NCBI GenBank assembly: GCA_013298545.1
Contig: JAAFIA010000001.1
Span: forward strand, 62,001 to 126,000
Reading direction: 5' to 3'
Source: Bacteroidota bacterium
Lineage (GTDB): Bacteria > Bacteroidota > Bacteroidia > Palsa-965
Length of the DNA stretch: 64,000 bases
The notes under the pieces are model-generated. The model had not been told where the DNA came from, searched no databases, and saw nothing but the letters and a program-made list of their open reading frames with translations. Position numbers and translations under genes: made by a program. Positions 26,526 to 32,966 of this stretch are shown here, in pieces (positions within the stretch are counted from its first letter, which is position 1; the number at the start of each line of letters is the position of its first letter).

Positions 26526-27164
26526 CTATTCTGGCTGATAAAACTTTTCTGTTAGAAAAAAAACGGTGTCGATAAACTGTAAAACGCCCTCGTTTGTCAA
26601 CACATTTTCATCATGCAAATCTTCCAAAATAATACCTAGGTCAGGATGAAAATAATCGTTGTCTTTTTTATTGATGAATCCATTTGCACTTAAAAAGTCT
26701 TTTACGTTTTCAAGATTTGTGCTTTCTGTTGCTTTTACAAATGGTTGCATCACGACAGCATGAAGAGTTCCTTCATATAACTTAAAGCCGATCAATTCAT
26801 AGGCCAAATGAGGGAAAAAGTAATTGTGCAATAACAGGTTATTTAAGTAATCCGACCAGCATTTATAAAAAATACCATCATTTACCTTAATGACAAAATC
26901 AGGATCTAAATGCTCGTAAATTTTCTGTTCCGCTCCTTCACCAATATATTTTGCGGCAAGCTCGCTAACATACCAAAAGTTGGCTTGCTCAACATAGTCA
27001 ATTAGGATTTTTGTTTCTTCGTCCTTACTGAACTTTGTTTCTTTAACGTTTGAAACTGCATTCTTTTTTCCTCTAAGGTAAGCCGAGATTGTTTGGATAG
27101 TTTCTCCATGCCTAACTTGTCCATTTCCTGAAATGATATTTTGTAGTTCATTTTTTAACGACAT
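26526..27164 (-). CDS. Kinase-like protein (resembles the kinase domain of polyvalent proteins)
   Basis: 212 residues. After an N-terminal ~70 residues without a recognised fold there is a phosphotransferase-like pattern: a Gly-containing start and lysine (IGEGAEQKIYEHLDPDFVIK), a hinge-like VVMQPFVKA, a catalytic-loop candidate EDLHDENVL and a metal-site candidate FIDTVFF. The order matches kinases of the polyvalent-protein group found on phage and conjugative elements, but I rely on pattern only. The DNA is richer in A/T than glyS or the dehydrogenase to its left, as in the following 6 kb. No partner gene is adjacent. Confidence 0.55.
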   Translation of the reverse strand: MSLKNELQNIISGNGQVRHGETIQTISAYLRGKKNAVSNVKETKFSKDEETKILIDYVEQANFWYVSELAAKYIGEGAEQKIYEHLDPDFVIKVNDGIFYKCWSDYLNNLLLHNYFFPHLAYELIGFKLYEGTLHAVVMQPFVKATESTNLENVKDFLSANGFINKKDNDYFHPDLGIILEDLHDENVLTNEGVLQFIDTVFFLTEKFYQPE

Positions 27165-27375: not shown

Positions 27376-28299
27376 CTAGTATTGTTCATACCAGCTAAAT
27401 TTTTCCTGAACAATTTGCGCTTTTTCTTTTCTCAAATAATCTAAAAAGGCTTTGGAAACGGGGGCATGTTTTTTCCCTTTTAACCACACTAAACTCCACG
27501 TTGTTTTAATGGGAAGTCCTTTTATGGGGATGATTTGTAATCCGTTGTTATGAACTTCATTTTTAATCCCAATCAATGGCATAATTGAATATCCTAAACC
27601 TGCTAATAAAGCTTGTTTCACTGCTTCGTTCGATGTTAATTCCATCTTTTTTAATACTGGCAAGTTATTTTTTTGAATAAACAGTTCCATGGTTTGTCTT
27701 GTTCCCGAACCTTTTTCTCTAAAAATGAGTGGTAAGCCGTTGAACGTATCTTTCACACTTTTACCAAGATTTATTTTTGTCTTGCTACTTCCTACCAGAT
27801 ATAATTTATTTTGCAGCAAATCGAGTTTCTCAACATGGAGTGTGTTGGGTATAATGGAGACGAGTGCAAAATCGACTTCATTGTTTTCCAAACTCTCAAT
27901 AACTTTATTTTTATTTGTTACATCCATCACTAATTCTACGCCTGCATGCTGTTGCATAAAATTTGTGAGAAAATAAGGCATTACATACTTCCCTGTTGAT
28001 ACAACCGAAATTTTTAAGCGTCCGGTTAGTTGTCCTTTATATGCCAGCGTTTTATAATTAATGGCATAAACCTGATTGATAATATCTTCTGCAGCTGCTG
28101 CAATTTCTTTTCCAAAATCAGTAATGTAAATTTTTCGTCCAACGATTTCAGTTAGCGGAATATCAAACTGATCTTGAAAGTTTTTCAACTGAATAGAAAC
28201 GGCTGGTTGAGTAAGGTGCAGTTCTTCTGCCGCCTTCGTGATGCTTTTTTCTTGCACGATTTTTAAAAAAATCTGCAACTGGTTCAATGTGTAATTCAT
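27376..28299 (-). CDS. LysR-family transcriptional regulator
   Basis: 307 residues. The N-terminal winged helix-turn-helix (LNQLQIFLKIVQEKSITKAA, EELHLTQPAVSIQLKNFQDQ) is followed by a substrate-binding domain from about residue 90 (GRLKISVVSTGKYVMPYFLT). The substrate domain resembles the CysB/CbbR group. It is divergent from the icd-sbtA cluster with a 93-base shared promoter region, the classic arrangement for a LysR protein controlling its neighbour. Given the bicarbonate transporter, a CO2- or carbon-status signal is plausible but unproven. Confidence 0.9.
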   Translation of the reverse strand: MNYTLNQLQIFLKIVQEKSITKAAEELHLTQPAVSIQLKNFQDQFDIPLTEIVGRKIYITDFGKEIAAAAEDIINQVYAINYKTLAYKGQLTGRLKISVVSTGKYVMPYFLTNFMQQHAGVELVMDVTNKNKVIESLENNEVDFALVSIIPNTLHVEKLDLLQNKLYLVGSSKTKINLGKSVKDTFNGLPLIFREKGSGTRQTMELFIQKNNLPVLKKMELTSNEAVKQALLAGLGYSIMPLIGIKNEVHNNGLQIIPIKGLPIKTTWSLVWLKGKKHAPVSKAFLDYLRKEKAQIVQEKFSWYEQY

Positions 28300-28323
28300 A
28301 AATTTTTTTAATGTTATTCATAT

Positions 28324-28331
28324 CAAAGATA
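28324..28331 (-). promoter_or_regulatory. -7 box of the LysR gene
   Basis: TATCTTTG on the minus strand, 25 bases before the LysR ATG. On the plus strand of the same gap CAGTTTTG, one base off TANNTTTG, lies upstream of icd and could be a weak, activator-dependent promoter. Confidence 0.45.
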
Positions 28332-28392
28332 AATAAAAATTAATGAAATAGAATTTACAGTTTTGCACCGTTAAACATAAACCAAAAACAAA

Positions 28393-29829
28393 ATGACACG
28401 AATCACAGTTGCAAAAGGCGATGGAATTGGACCTGAAATAATGGATGCCACTTTAGAAATAATTTTAGCTGCGGGGGCCAAGTTTGAAATAGATGAAATT
28501 GCCGTTGGCGAGCAAGTTTATCTAGCGGGCAATACATCAGGCATTGCATCCGAATCGTGGGATGTTATTAGAAAAAACAAAGTTTTTCTTAAAGCTCCTA
28601 TTACAACGCCTCAAGGTGGGGGCTATAAAAGCTTAAATGTAACGACGCGCAAATTTCTTGGCTTATACTCAAACGTAAGGCCCTGCATGAGTTTACATCC
28701 TTTTGTAAGCACCAAGCATCCCGTAATGGATATTGTTATTGTCAGAGAAAACGAAGAGGATTTATACGCGGGCATTGAACACCAACAAACAGATGAAGTT
28801 GTACAATGCTTAAAGTTAATAAGCAGACCGGGCTGCGAAAAAATTGTTCGTTATGCGTTTGAGTATGCCAAACAACAAAACAGAAAGAAAGTAACCTGTT
28901 TTACAAAAGATAATATCATGAAACAAACAGATGGTTTGTTTCATCAAGTATTTGATGAAATTGCAAAAGAGTATCCTGAAATTGAAAACGAACATTGGAT
29001 CATTGATATTGGTGCCGCTAAAATGGCTGATACACCAGAATCTTTTGATGTCATTGTGATGCCCAATTTATATGGCGATGTACTGAGTGACGTTGCTGCA
29101 CAAATTACAGGATCTGTAGGTTTGGCGGGTTCTGCCAATATCGGTGAAGAGTGTTCAATGTTTGAAGCCATACATGGTTCTGCGCCCAGAAGAGCTGGAC
29201 AAAACGTAGCTAATCCTTCAGGTTTATTACAAGGTGCTATCATGATGTTGAATCATATCGGACAAACAGATGTTGCAGAAAAAGTTCAAAATGCTTGGCT
29301 GAAAACATTGGAAGATGGAATACATACGTATGACATCTTTAAAGAAGGAATCAGCAAACAAAAAGTGGGTACAAAGGAATTTGCAAAAGCGGTTATTGCC
29401 AACCTGGGGCATAAACCATCTATCCTAAAACCTGTTTCGTATGCTAAAAATTCTGCGCTAAATCTTCCGAAATACAAACGGAAACCGGCTGCAAACAAAC
29501 AACTCGTTGGTGTCGATGTTTTTGTTCACTGGACCGGCTCTAATCCAAATGAATTGGCAGAAAAAATCAAAAAGATAGAAAGCAGCGACGTAAAACTATC
29601 TATGATTACCAACAGAGGAATCAAGGTTTGGCCTGACGGATTTCAGGAAACATTTTGTACAGACCACTGGAGATGTCGTTTTAAACCAACCGAAAATGCT
29701 GAAATCAATAAATCAACCATCATTGAACTATTGAAACAAGCGGTTACTGAAAATATCGATACGATCAAAACAGAAAACTTATATTCTTTTGATGGTAAAG
29801 CGGCTTATTCTCTAGGACAAGGTCAATAA
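28393..29829 (+). CDS. icd: NADP-dependent isocitrate dehydrogenase
   Basis: 478 residues, matching the longer Thermus/Rickettsia-type enzyme with an extra C-terminal domain (about 340-478) rather than the ~415-residue E. coli form. It interconverts isocitrate and 2-oxoglutarate plus CO2 in the TCA cycle. Visible are ITVAKGDGIGPEIM, the substrate loop TTPQGGGYKSLNVTTRK, VRENEEDLYAGIEHQ, and the metal/NADP segment MPNLYGDVLSDVAAQITG with HGSAPRRAGQNVANPSG. It is the first gene of a dense cluster: the next ORF starts 10 bases after its stop. It is unusual to find it coupled to a bicarbonate transporter. Confidence 0.93.
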   Translation: MTRITVAKGDGIGPEIMDATLEIILAAGAKFEIDEIAVGEQVYLAGNTSGIASESWDVIRKNKVFLKAPITTPQGGGYKSLNVTTRKFLGLYSNVRPCMSLHPFVSTKHPVMDIVIVRENEEDLYAGIEHQQTDEVVQCLKLISRPGCEKIVRYAFEYAKQQNRKKVTCFTKDNIMKQTDGLFHQVFDEIAKEYPEIENEHWIIDIGAAKMADTPESFDVIVMPNLYGDVLSDVAAQITGSVGLAGSANIGEECSMFEAIHGSAPRRAGQNVANPSGLLQGAIMMLNHIGQTDVAEKVQNAWLKTLEDGIHTYDIFKEGISKQKVGTKEFAKAVIANLGHKPSILKPVSYAKNSALNLPKYKRKPAANKQLVGVDVFVHWTGSNPNELAEKIKKIESSDVKLSMITNRGIKVWPDGFQETFCTDHWRCRFKPTENAEINKSTIIELLKQAVTENIDTIKTENLYSFDGKAAYSLGQGQ

Positions 29830-29838
29830 ACAAACACC

Positions 29839-30081
29839 ATGGACATACAACTTATACAAGGAGAATTTAGCTCCAAGGATGCTATAGAACTTATAGCCCA
29901 AATGTTGCAGATAAAAATAAAGTATCACGAAAATAAAATTAGACAAGACAGCAACGAAGAAGATGTAAAGAACCGAGAGTCGAAAATTAAGCAGCTCCAA
30001 AATGAGCTATTGGAACTGAGGGAAAGTATTGGTTCGAATAGCGATAACATAAAAATTGAAGCCATCATAAAAATTGAATGA
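29839..30081 (+). CDS. Small protein, paralogue of the 93-residue protein two genes on
   Basis: 80 residues, acidic-basic and probably helical. It begins IQLIQGEFSSKDAIELIAQM and ends in a coiled-coil-like stretch (ESKIKQLQNELLELRESI). It aligns with the protein at 30253-30534 (LKLIEGNFSYDESKEILSSL). I recall similar short proteins as widespread Bacteroidota hypotheticals, function unknown. It overlaps the next gene by 4 bases (ATGA). Confidence 0.7.
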   Translation: MDIQLIQGEFSSKDAIELIAQMLQIKIKYHENKIRQDSNEEDVKNRESKIKQLQNELLELRESIGSNSDNIKIEAIIKIE

Positions 30082-30260
30082 GTATGGATACAATAGCATT
30101 AAAAACTAGTTTTTGTTTGGTCTTAATGATTGCATTTCTAATCCTAGCGTTCACCACGACGAGCGTTATTACACGAGAACTTTTCTCCTCTTTAGGGTTA
30201 ATCACAATCATTTACGCATCAAAACTAATATCTTCTCAAAACAAGCTAAAAAATGAATAA
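30078..30260 (+). CDS. Small two-helix membrane protein
   Basis: 60 residues with two hydrophobic segments, about 9-28 (TSFCLVLMIAFLILAF) and 34-50 (LFSSLGLITIIYASKLI). It overlaps the genes on both sides (4 and 8 bases), which supports real translation. No family recognised. Confidence 0.6.
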   Translation: MSMDTIALKTSFCLVLMIAFLILAFTTTSVITRELFSSLGLITIIYASKLISSQNKLKNE

Positions 30261-30534
30261 AATAGAACGTTTAAAACTGATTGAAGGCAACTTCTCATAC
30301 GACGAGTCAAAGGAAATCCTATCCAGTTTATTTTCCTCAAAAATTAATTTTCATAAAATAAAAAATTGGAGTTCGCACGAGCGTTTTGGAAAAGACGATG
30401 AAATTGCACAAGAACGAATTCCGGCTTTAAAAAAGGAAATGGAAAAGTTGCAAACCTTACTCCTAGAAGCCAAAGCAACTAAGAAGCGACTTTTAGTTAC
30501 TTCCGAGATACACATAACATTAGTGGATGAGTGA
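30253..30534 (+). CDS. Small LIEGNFS-type protein
   Basis: 93 residues. N-terminal LKLIEGNFSYDESKEILSSL, central KINFHKIKNWSSHERFGKDD and a helical C-terminus (RIPALKKEMEKLQTLLLEAK). It is related to the 80-residue protein upstream but keeps the fuller SSHERFGK centre. It overlaps the membrane protein by 8 bases and the next gene by 8 bases. Function unknown. Confidence 0.75.
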   Translation: MNKIERLKLIEGNFSYDESKEILSSLFSSKINFHKIKNWSSHERFGKDDEIAQERIPALKKEMEKLQTLLLEAKATKKRLLVTSEIHITLVDE

Positions 30535-31378
30535 TTTTGCGCTGCTCAAGGGGAGGCGTTTGCTGATTGCAACGAAACACGAGAAGGAAAAAGTAATTGC
30601 TCCTATTTTAGAAAGAGAATTGGGTGTAAAATGTTTCATCGCCTCCAATATCGATACGGACCTGCTTGGTACTTTTACAGGAGAAGTTGAACGAAAAGAC
30701 GACCCTGTAACCACCGCTAGAAATAAATGCTTGATGGCAATGGAACTAACAAATTGCGATTTGGCCATTGCTAGCGAAGGTTCTTTTGGTCCACATCCCT
30801 CCCTTTATTTTATTCCTGCCGATGACGAGTTTTTATGCTTTCTGGATAAAAAAAATGAGCTAGAAATTATTTCTCGGGAATTAAGTACTGAGACCAATTT
30901 TAATGCTTTGGAAATTAAAACAGAAAAAGAATTAAAAGATTTTGCAACTCAAGCAAACTTTCCTTCTCATGGTTTGATTCTGAGAAAAGCAAAAGATGAT
31001 TTTAGCGTACTTGTCAAAGGAATAACAAATCTAGAACAACTCATCAGCACATTCAATACGCTCGTAGCCGAACACGGTAAAGCTTTTGTTGAAACCGATA
31101 TGCGGGCCATGTACAATCCAACCAGAATGAACGTGATTGAGCGTGCTGCCATAAAACTTGCGGAAAAAATAAATACTCGCTGCCCCAATTGCGAAATGCC
31201 GGGATTTGGAATTACAGCGGTTAAACCCGGATTGCCGTGCGAATTATGCCATTTCCCAACACGCAGTACACTGAGTCATGTTTATACGTGCCAAAAGTGC
31301 TCTTTCTCCAACACAAAATTGTACCCAAACGATAAACAAAGGGAAGACCCTATGTACTGTGATCATTGCAATCCATAA
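30527..31378 (+). CDS. DUF6671-like protein with four CxxC pairs
   Basis: 283 residues. The N-terminal ~215 residues have no catalytic motif I know; they include LLIATKHEKEKVIAPILERE and a well-ordered TDMRAMYNPTRMNVIERAA segment. The last 68 residues carry four CxxC pairs (Cys219/222, 238/241, 255/258, 278/281), consistent with two zinc ribbons. I believe this corresponds to DUF6671, which has no assigned function. It overlaps the preceding small gene by 8 bases and lies 12 bases before sbtA, so it belongs to the same transcript. Confidence 0.7.
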   Translation: MSDFALLKGRRLLIATKHEKEKVIAPILERELGVKCFIASNIDTDLLGTFTGEVERKDDPVTTARNKCLMAMELTNCDLAIASEGSFGPHPSLYFIPADDEFLCFLDKKNELEIISRELSTETNFNALEIKTEKELKDFATQANFPSHGLILRKAKDDFSVLVKGITNLEQLISTFNTLVAEHGKAFVETDMRAMYNPTRMNVIERAAIKLAEKINTRCPNCEMPGFGITAVKPGLPCELCHFPTRSTLSHVYTCQKCSFSNTKLYPNDKQREDPMYCDHCNP

Positions 31379-31390
31379 AAAATAAAAACA

Positions 31391-32353
31391 ATGAATTTTG
31401 ATCTTCTTATAGATAATCTTACAAATCCCGCATTACTTTTTTTTGTCCTTGGCATTATTGCTGTTTACTTGAAAAGTGATTTAGAAATTCCCGCAAATTC
31501 GTCAAAATTTATTTCACTCTATCTCTTGTTTGCAATTGGCTTCAAAGGTGGCCAGGAATTATCTCATGAATCCTTTACAATGGAAATTGGATGGTCGATG
31601 TTATTTGGAATTTTTATTTCCTTAATCATACCATTTTATACATTCTTTATACTCAAGCGGAAATTAAATGTATTTGATGCTGGTGCCATCGCTGCGGCCT
31701 ACGGTTCTGTAAGTGCCGTTACTTTTGTTACTGCGGTTTCTTATTTAGAATCTCAGCAATTGATGCTCCATGGACACATGGTTGCTATTATGGCTTTGAT
31801 GGAATCTCCTGCGATAATCATTGGGTTGATTCTAATTTCTATGTTTAATAAAGAAGAGTCTAACACCATTAGCAAACGAAGTGTTTTAAAACACTCGTTT
31901 ACAAACGGAAGTGTATTGCTTATTCTCGGTAGTTTACTGATTGGTTATTTTGCCAATACCAAACAAGCCGAAGGAATACGACCATTTACAAACGATCTTT
32001 TTAAAGGTTTTCTAGCCATTTTTCTTTTAGACATGGGTATCACCAGTGGTAAAAAACTCAAAGCGTTTTTCTCGTTCGGTTGGTTTCCAATTATTTTTGC
32101 GGTAATTATTCCTCTCGTTAATGGTTGTGCTATTGCACTGGTCAGCTCTTTTGTAACGCAAGAAATTACAAATCGTTTTATGTTTGCAATTTTAGCTGCA
32201 AGTGCTTCTTACATTGCCGTTCCGGCTGCCATGAAAATTTCTGTCCCCAAATCAAATCCCGGACTTTTCCTGCCCATGGCGCTTGCCGTAACGTTCCCAA
32301 TTAATATTACCATTGGCATGCCCATCTATTTTCTAATTGTGCAAAACACATGA
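31391..32353 (+). CDS. sbtA: SbtA-type sodium-dependent bicarbonate transporter
   Basis: 320 residues, about ten membrane helices in two inverted halves (first helix after DLLIDNLTNPALLFFVLG). Family-like segments include LYLLFAIGFKGGQEL, AAAYGSVSAVTFVTA, GHMVAIMALMESPAIIIG and SASYIAVPAAMKIS. In cyanobacteria SbtA imports HCO3- with Na+ and is controlled by the PII-like SbtB; no SbtB is encoded here. The central loop is short compared with cyanobacterial SbtA. In a heterotroph the import would feed carboxylation reactions, which is inference. Confidence 0.88.
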   Translation: MNFDLLIDNLTNPALLFFVLGIIAVYLKSDLEIPANSSKFISLYLLFAIGFKGGQELSHESFTMEIGWSMLFGIFISLIIPFYTFFILKRKLNVFDAGAIAAAYGSVSAVTFVTAVSYLESQQLMLHGHMVAIMALMESPAIIIGLILISMFNKEESNTISKRSVLKHSFTNGSVLLILGSLLIGYFANTKQAEGIRPFTNDLFKGFLAIFLLDMGITSGKKLKAFFSFGWFPIIFAVIIPLVNGCAIALVSSFVTQEITNRFMFAILAASASYIAVPAAMKISVPKSNPGLFLPMALAVTFPINITIGMPIYFLIVQNT

Positions 32354-32393
32354 TTAGAAGTATCGCAACACATAAACACATCAAGCAAACAAC

Positions 32394-32966
32394 ATGAAGA
32401 AACACACATTTATCGCCGGATATTTTATTGCAACAATCGGATTGATTGGCTGTAACTCCAATGAGAAAAATGGAAACCAAGAAGTAAAAGATGAGCCAAA
32501 AAAAGAGACTTCGTCTCCGATACTTTTTGATACGCTCGCAGCGGTTGAAGGAATCAATAAAATGAGAACAGCAATCGAAGCGCTTGAAATAAATCCGTTT
32601 GAAATTTCGACTTCTGGGCTACGAGAAAAGACAAAACAAAAGTGGAGCAAGATTCACTTCTATGTTCAAAATGATGTTGTCATTAAAGTTAAAACATATC
32701 CGTATTCTGAAATTTCAAAAAGAACAGAAGAGTTTTATGCGAATAAAGATGGTTTAGCATTAGTTGTGATTGAAGATGATGGCGAAGGTTCCAAGGGAAA
32801 GCCGAAAAATGAATTAGACAAGATGTATTACTTCAACAATGGCAAGCCAATAAAGGAATTAAATAAAGAAGCGGAATCGGAGTACACCATCAAAACCAGT
32901 GATGCAGAAGAGTTATTGGCCGAGTACGAAGAATATCTTGACATTTACAAAAAGGCTAAAAAATAA
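32394..32966 (+). CDS. Hypothetical lipoprotein
   Basis: 190 residues. Lipoprotein signal with lipobox GLIGC (Cys20), then a short charged linker (NEKNGNQEVKDEPKKE) and a soluble domain with mixed strands (KIHFYVQNDVVIKVKTYPYS). No family recognised. It starts 40 bases after sbtA and may be the last gene of that cluster. Confidence 0.75.
   Translation: MKKHTFIAGYFIATIGLIGCNSNEKNGNQEVKDEPKKETSSPILFDTLAAVEGINKMRTAIEALEINPFEISTSGLREKTKQKWSKIHFYVQNDVVIKVKTYPYSEISKRTEEFYANKDGLALVVIEDDGEGSKGKPKNELDKMYYFNNGKPIKELNKEAESEYTIKTSDAEELLAEYEEYLDIYKKAKK

Follow-up and report, generated by a model that had tools for sequence, protein, structure and literature searches.

Why should a bacterium with no detectable RuBisCO carry, in one tightly packed cluster, a LysR-type regulator of the carbon-transport class, an isocitrate dehydrogenase gene (icd) and a relative of the bicarbonate transporter SbtA? 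The question is raised by positions 27376-32966 of a 64,000-nucleotide stretch of a Bacteroidota genome (GenBank assembly GCA_013298545.1, contig JAAFIA010000001.1, positions 62,001 to 126,000), hereafter the window. The genome measures 4.53 Mb and is 97% complete, the closest relatives at the locus are from Bacteroidota, and no match to the RuBisCO large subunit (PF00016), the mark of an autotrophic CO2-concentrating mechanism, was found in it. Bacteria without RuBisCO fixation still need CO2 or HCO3- for anaplerosis and for the synthesis of fatty acids, purines, pyrimidines and the tRNA modification threonylcarbamoyladenosine (t6A), and we came across no account of Bacteroidota answering CO2 shortage with a dedicated, regulated response. 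From our comparative analysis, the locus is probably a LysR-controlled, inducible CO2/HCO3- starvation operon of Bacteroidota that lack RuBisCO. The evidence is a conserved gene order, a single conserved operator, and a set of inorganic-carbon genes swapped in behind the same regulator.

A recurrent gene cluster behind one LysR regulator

A preliminary description of the window had listed a LysR gene facing icd, three tiny genes, a protein with four CxxC motifs (DUF6671) and an SbtA-like gene (family Sbt_1). All of them lie where it placed them, in that order and tightly spaced (gaps or overlaps of 9, -4, -8, -8 and 12 nt). It had also suggested a neighbourhood search for co-occurrence of icd, DUF6671 and sbtA, which bore the linkage out. 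In this class-wide survey, 295 genomes were searched for DUF6671 (present in 54), Sbt_1 (76) and the C-terminal domain of this icd type (116), and the positions were then joined. Of the 44 genomes that have both icd and DUF6671, 27 carry DUF6671 within 1.5 kb downstream of icd on the same strand, against a chance expectation of about 0.01. Sbt_1 and DUF6671 are no more than 1.5 kb apart in 18 of 36 genomes with both, and icd and Sbt_1 no more than 3 kb apart in 18 of 65. It is true that icd, sbtA or DUF6671 stand apart in many Bacteroidota, as they would if the cluster had brought unrelated genes together by chance, with no function in common. Such an origin is very improbable, however, with adjacency thousands of times above chance, a common operator, and an order conserved in many families. 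Judged by these comparisons, the cluster is a genuine operon that recurs across many Bacteroidota.

The content of this operon was compared in 120 loci fetched from the 295 genomes and in 80 loci of GTDB genomes found by DUF6671 alignment. Across the fetched loci, the same divergent LysR heads operons built from a small gene set, namely icd, a hydrophobic peptide of about 52-90 residues, one or two small proteins, DUF6671, Sua5 (L-threonylcarbamoyladenylate synthase), dihydroorotase (PyrC), Sbt_1, beta-carbonic anhydrase and DabB-DabA. Sua5, dihydroorotase, DabA, the DabB-type antiporter, P-II and carbonic anhydrase were confirmed in representatives with Pfam and NCBIfam. Among 80 divergent-LysR loci, the operon held a small protein of the family here named SML in 53, icd in 50, Sbt_1 in 47, DUF6671 in 43, Sua5 in 19 and dihydroorotase in 13; these loci were collected via DUF6671, Sbt_1, icd and SML, and the counts describe the module rather than unbiased frequencies. 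In some loci LysR and SML are followed by DabB-DabA (L137, L173, L181), and carbonic anhydrase, DabAB or SbtA stand behind the same LysR without icd in L137, L173, L181, L199, L213 and L216-L218. Because the genes exchanged at other loci are those of carbonic anhydrase, DabAB, Sua5 and dihydroorotase, the theme of the cluster, as read from gene content, is inorganic carbon.

The regulator and its operator

The closest solved structure to the LysR protein is the Synechocystis 'Rubisco operon transcriptional regulator' CcmR/NdhR (5y2v; 1.1e-51, 179 bits), followed by CmpR (5z49; 3.5e-29, 105 bits, effector domain only), whereas the next other LysR structures scored 91 and 61 bits; OxyR and CcpC (58 bits for the latter) are well behind. 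Its nearest characterised relatives belong to the CcmR/NdhR-CmpR-CbbR class, in agreement with the CbbR/CmpR type named in the preliminary description. The protein is not filed as CbbR itself, since it falls below the cut-off of the NCBIfam CbbR equivalog NF045990 (171 bits against 450). CcmR/NdhR and CmpR control inorganic carbon (Ci) transporters (PMC13249358), and 2-oxoglutarate (2-OG) and NADP+ are reported co-repressors of CcmR (PMC3401165). Across the 80 LysR proteins, the 2-OG interface residues given in a review (PMC13249358) are nearly always kept (K104 in 77, Y105 in 80, S224 in 74 and N225 in 79; K104 was read off the alignment where the review prints Lys10), and two contacts to 2-phosphoglycolate have changed (H130 to K, R267 to T or S). 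As 2-OG and NADP+ are product and substrate of NADP-isocitrate dehydrogenase, a feedback between LysR and icd would be attractive.

Between lysR and the start of the operon lies a gap of 93 bp in the window and mostly 84-95 bp across loci, and it carries an operator that is conserved in 80 loci from many families. Its consensus reads TTTATG-N6-ATTACAAATATAAATAAAAATwTATGAAT, then AnnTTTGC, with several invariant columns, and it is nearly identical whichever gene comes next (icd, transmembrane peptide, SML, Sbt_1, DUF6671 or carbonic anhydrase). With up to three mismatches, the pattern occurs as a single copy in the window's whole genome, with no additional copy, and a reversed control gave none. 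Because there is one operator copy in the genome, LysR appears to be a regulator with a single target, and is probably autoregulated. In the gap alignment A60 and T63-G66 are nearly invariant, forming an AnnTTTG motif which we take to resemble the Bacteroidota -7 element. The -7 box of Bacteroidota is TAnnTTTG. A sigma-70 scan, which is unsuited to Bacteroidota, returned fewer promoters than were found in shuffled sequence.

Small proteins and the partner of SbtA

Among the three tiny genes, two encode paralogues within the SML family, and the third encodes a peptide with two probable transmembrane stretches (two-TM peptide). None of the three has a credible Pfam or NCBIfam match. That they are spurious calls was ruled out by their conservation together with confident folds or hydropathy, and at the place of the two-TM peptide, hydrophobic open reading frames (ORFs) of 52-90 residues occur in most of 42 candidates beside module genes. 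The fetched loci hold 89 SML members in two clades. Clade a (34 members, median 80 residues) stands directly after icd in 30 of 34, and clade b (55 members, median 95 residues) directly precedes DUF6671 in 32, Sbt_1 in 9, DabB in 3 and Sua5 in 2 (46 of 55). A search with the 93-residue SML-b gave 41 matches in 38 of the 295 genomes, and 35 of these matches were no more than 3 kb away from icd, DUF6671 or sbtA. Since each subtype has its own neighbours, these arrangements suggest partner-specific roles. The AlphaFold2 model of the window's SML-b (predicted local distance difference test, pLDDT, 94.5) forms a strand, two long helices and a strand (beta-alpha-alpha-beta), and in the PDB Foldseek found no fold relative at E <= 0.001, while the VIA matches did not go beyond helical hairpins (Z <= 7.7). 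Descent from P-II/SbtB was considered for SML and rejected, as the PDB profile search was empty and the Foldseek and VIA comparisons were as just given.

In some genomes a second unnamed small-protein family (about 93-121 residues) replaces SML between the same LysR and sbtA [Table 1].

The preliminary description had proposed that the small proteins stand in for SbtB, the P-II-type partner of SbtA. Among 98 Sbt_1 loci, SML was nearby in 39, a P-II gene lay within 1 kb in 13, and no locus had both; for the 39 SML-linked loci, the window's included, the absence of P-II refers to this 1-kb neighbourhood, P-II elsewhere in the genome not having been sought. In a quick tree, a supported clade of 82 holds all 39 SML-linked and 32 of 33 other module-linked Sbt_1, and all 13 P-II-linked sequences fall outside it. 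This distribution suggests that SbtA changed its regulatory partner within Bacteroidota, with SbtB lost before or together with the whole LysR-module clade in one or few events. Because that loss amounts to few evolutionary events, the exclusivity of SML and P-II is not countable as 39 observations. The proposal thus stands as far as the missing SbtB neighbour is concerned; by its gene neighbours, however, SML is not simply a replacement for SbtB, because it also accompanies icd and DabB.

Outside the module clade, Bacteroidota SbtA keep a downstream P-II-like SbtB gene (L187, L190, L197, L202, L210, L211), and L202 has a carbonic anhydrase gene upstream of SbtA as well. In marine flavobacteria sbtA has been counted as an anaplerotic carbon gene (PMC5932025).

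Isocitrate dehydrogenase and DUF6671

The nearest structure to the icd product is the Thermus isocitrate dehydrogenase (IDH; 2d1c, 1.5e-107). The other IDH of the genome (G000:C82) is of the eukaryote-like NADP type PRK08299, and the icd of the operon is therefore an extra isozyme. A link of icd to carboxylation, which the preliminary description had entertained beside decarboxylation, found no support. These two are the only Iso_dh-family genes found in the genome, with none of the leuB type; either the organism may be unable to make leucine or the gene may fall in a gap.

DUF6671 contains eight cysteines in four CxxC motifs (zinc ribbons), all invariant in the alignment, and an N-terminal ATKHxKE stretch and a SEGSFGPHP motif that are nearly so. 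A sequence profile found nothing significant in the PDB, and the likeness to YjjX, RdgB and HcgB comes from fold comparison only. With the AlphaFold2 model (pLDDT 93.6), Foldseek ranked YjjX first (1.8e-4), then HcgB and ITPA, and VIA aligned RdgB (Z 12.9; 136 residues, root-mean-square deviation 3.4) and YjjX (Z 12.5; 134 residues, 3.0). The fold resembling inosine triphosphate pyrophosphatase (ITPase) spans residues ~9-218 (Z 11-13). From the model, the protein, which the preliminary description had taken for a zinc-ribbon regulator, is more likely an enzyme acting on a nucleotide than a regulator. We found no description of DUF6671 in the open-licence literature, which leaves out most subscription papers. 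Residues ~125-193 (window 30899-31105) also align to ATP-grasp proteins (biotin carboxylase, Ddl, cyanophycin synthetase; Z 8-10 over ~66 residues), which may be coincidence.

This fold would also suit an alternative, a carbamoyl and nucleotide supply operon, in which SbtA would bring HCO3- for pyrimidine and t6A synthesis (PyrC, Sua5), DUF6671 would serve that pathway as a house-cleaning nucleotidase and icd would be a passenger. In 80 DUF6671 loci, PyrC is present in 42 and Sua5 in 34, as such an operon would predict, but these loci are the nearest DUF6671 relatives and no random draw. The LysR-operator loci, in contrast, hold Sua5 in 19 of 80 and PyrC in 13 of 80 against icd in 50 of 80, and the window's operon has neither PyrC nor Sua5. 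We regard this alternative as improbable. Outside the LysR module, however, DUF6671 often pairs with pyrC (L259, L260, L282, L284, L287, L290, L292, L295, L297, L300), a hint at a role near pyrimidine metabolism.

A probable response to CO2 and bicarbonate limitation

In the starvation response that we favour, LysR would occupy the single conserved operator, which lies between lysR and the operon, and would sense a metabolite that tracks the supply of inorganic carbon, the likeliest being 2-OG or a related central metabolite. At low CO2/HCO3-, LysR would release or activate the operon. SbtA (or DAB, plus carbonic anhydrase in some genomes) would then import or raise HCO3-, and the second IDH would add CO2 release and 2-OG supply. 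Where present, Sua5 and dihydroorotase would serve HCO3--dependent steps: Sua5 consumes HCO3- in t6A synthesis, and dihydroorotase belongs to the pyrimidine pathway, which depends on HCO3-. In human mitochondria Sua5-type t6A synthesis is limited by bicarbonate: for the mitochondrial Sua5 relative, the bicarbonate Km in t6A formation is 13-31 mM, and formation drops without CO2 (PMC5951830). A similar limit would account for a place of sua5 in the module. SML-a, SML-b and the two-TM peptide would probably regulate IDH and the membrane part or serve them as adaptors, each specific to its partner, and DUF6671 probably a nucleotide-acting enzyme with its ITPase-like fold. A bolder version, in which the loci form an undescribed, widespread CO2/HCO3--limitation regulon and the SML subtypes directly adjust IDH and SbtA/DAB in place of P-II, is conceivable, and we hold it with some doubt.

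Five observations weigh against the starvation response. The closest structure to the Sbt_1 protein is Slr1512 (7cye, 2.8e-24), whose proposed HCO3--holding residues are Ser114, Tyr140, Ser324 and Ser327 (PMC8352866); the window's protein has S/M/S/A at these positions and keeps two of the four (Y140M, S327A). The M and A are common to most Bacteroidota Sbt_1. P-II-linked members share the A, and in place of the Tyr nine of them carry L and four M. Because two of the four residues differ, the transporter is filed under the Sbt_1 superfamily with a putative bicarbonate transport function, bicarbonate being the likely substrate. Secondly, the K-Y and S-N residues of the regulator are also kept in CmpR, which binds ribulose 1,5-bisphosphate there, so they narrow the ligand and do not single out 2-OG. 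Thirdly, icd is the commonest named enzyme after LysR, and the regulator might serve the tricarboxylic acid (TCA) cycle first. Fourthly, outside the module DUF6671 is in many cases a neighbour of pyrC. Finally, no promoter or terminator evidence was found beyond the conserved gap. The bicarbonate link put forward in the preliminary description is supported, as an inorganic-carbon theme, by the Ci genes exchanged at other loci, and for the substrate of SbtA it is likely.

The strongest rival explanation is that the genes form a TCA or carbon/nitrogen operon, in which LysR senses 2-OG, citrate or isocitrate and sets the level of IDH, Sbt_1 transports a different anion, and the signal is something other than inorganic carbon. 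The frequency of icd and the altered SbtA residues would suit it, as would CcmR itself reading 2-OG and NADP+, and a B. subtilis-type CcpC, also a LysR, is among the weaker matches. CcpC controls TCA enzymes of Bacillus. Carbonic anhydrase, DabAB and SbtA nevertheless stand behind the same LysR in loci without icd, and CcpC is far behind CcmR (58 against 179 bits). Taken together, we consider this rival unlikely and the CO2/HCO3- starvation response the probable one.

The locus offers one defined regulator, one operator and a short gene list, and because the module occurs in culturable Flavobacterium species, among them F. petrolei with all of its genes (L313) and F. sandaracinum (L261), the idea is testable at once. 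It also gives functions to probe for DUF6671 and for the nameless SML family.

Features and flanking genes

The features of the locus are collected in Table 1. The preliminary description had run the cluster to 32966, and its last part, a lipoprotein-like ORF of 190 residues (32394-32966, +) that begins 40 nt past sbtA, has no relatives in the other fetched loci; it was set aside for this reason and is probably an orphan outside the system. Directly downstream of lysR lies a lone Kinase-PolyVal ORF (26526-27164, -; PF18762, 191 bits). Kinase-PolyVal kinases are mostly domains within larger polyvalent proteins of mobile elements.

Table 1. Features of the LysR-icd-sbtA locus (window coordinates unless a locus is named)
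Feature	Position	Strand	Evidence
LysR-type regulator, CcmR/NdhR-CmpR-CbbR class	27376..28299	-	LysR_substrate 132 bits, HTH_1 61 bits (Pfam); divergent from operon
Candidate LysR operator, TAATG-N6-AT..CAAAGATAAATAAAAATTAATGA in window	28309..28346	no strand	Consensus of 80 loci; within divergent gap
-7-like promoter element CAGTTTTG	28358..28365	+	AnnTTTG in nearly all loci; points into icd
icd, isocitrate dehydrogenase with bacterial C-terminal domain	28393..29829	+	TIGR02924 729 bits (cut-off 561), PRK09222 797 bits, PF18324 164 bits (cut-off 25); genome's second isozyme
SML subtype a, 80 residues, icd-linked small protein	29839..30081	+	SML family membership, clade a
60-residue peptide, two hydrophobic stretches, probably transmembrane	30078..30260	+	Like-placed hydrophobic ORFs in other loci
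SML subtype b, 93 residues, transporter/DUF6671-linked	30253..30534	+	Family search and AlphaFold2 model
DUF6671, ITPase/YjjX/HcgB-like domain and two C-terminal zinc ribbons	30527..31378	+	PF20376 349 bits; AlphaFold2 and fold comparison
SbtA-like transporter (Sbt_1), Na+-dependent bicarbonate transporter superfamily	31391..32353	+	PF05982 377 bits (cut-off 27)
Second small-protein family, members	L213:5642-5956, L216:6969-7331 (-), L217:5597-5962, L218:5678-5959

Comparison with known systems

Every protein class of the locus but SML is known, and so are LysR-controlled Ci transporter operons as a kind. For the gene combination, the operator and SML, the open-licence literature yielded no description, nor did it yield a link of icd, sbtA and LysR in Bacteroidota. 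The fold of the DUF6671 N-terminal domain is that of YjjX, RdgB/HAM1 and HcgB, from which the protein differs in its two added zinc ribbons and in the lack of a detectable profile match. CcpC of Bacillus is likewise a LysR protein, with TCA enzymes under its control, but its sequence similarity to the window's regulator is far weaker. The DAB pumps (DabA/DabB) appear as LysR-SML-DabB-DabA in the three loci named above, whereas the window's genome has no DabA match. As in SbtA-SbtB, an Sbt_1 transporter is adjoined by a small partner gene; here, however, the neighbours are SML (beta-alpha-alpha-beta) and the two-TM peptide instead of P-II, and SML, by its adjacency, is a putative partner of SbtA. 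The arrangement also resembles CmpR-cmpABCD, with a LysR gene divergent from a bicarbonate transporter operon and a restricted target set (PMC13249358), and differs from it in having SbtA or DAB rather than an ABC-type transporter, another operator and other cargo. Compared with the CcmR/NdhR regulon with sbtAB of Synechocystis, the regulator here would be local and single-site, its operator is AT-rich rather than ATAG-N8-CTAT, and its operon carries icd, SML and DUF6671, with no RuBisCO found in the genome and no SbtB beside SbtA. The two systems have in common the LysR class, the kept 2-OG interface and, by our reading, the control of high-affinity Ci uptake that includes sbtA.

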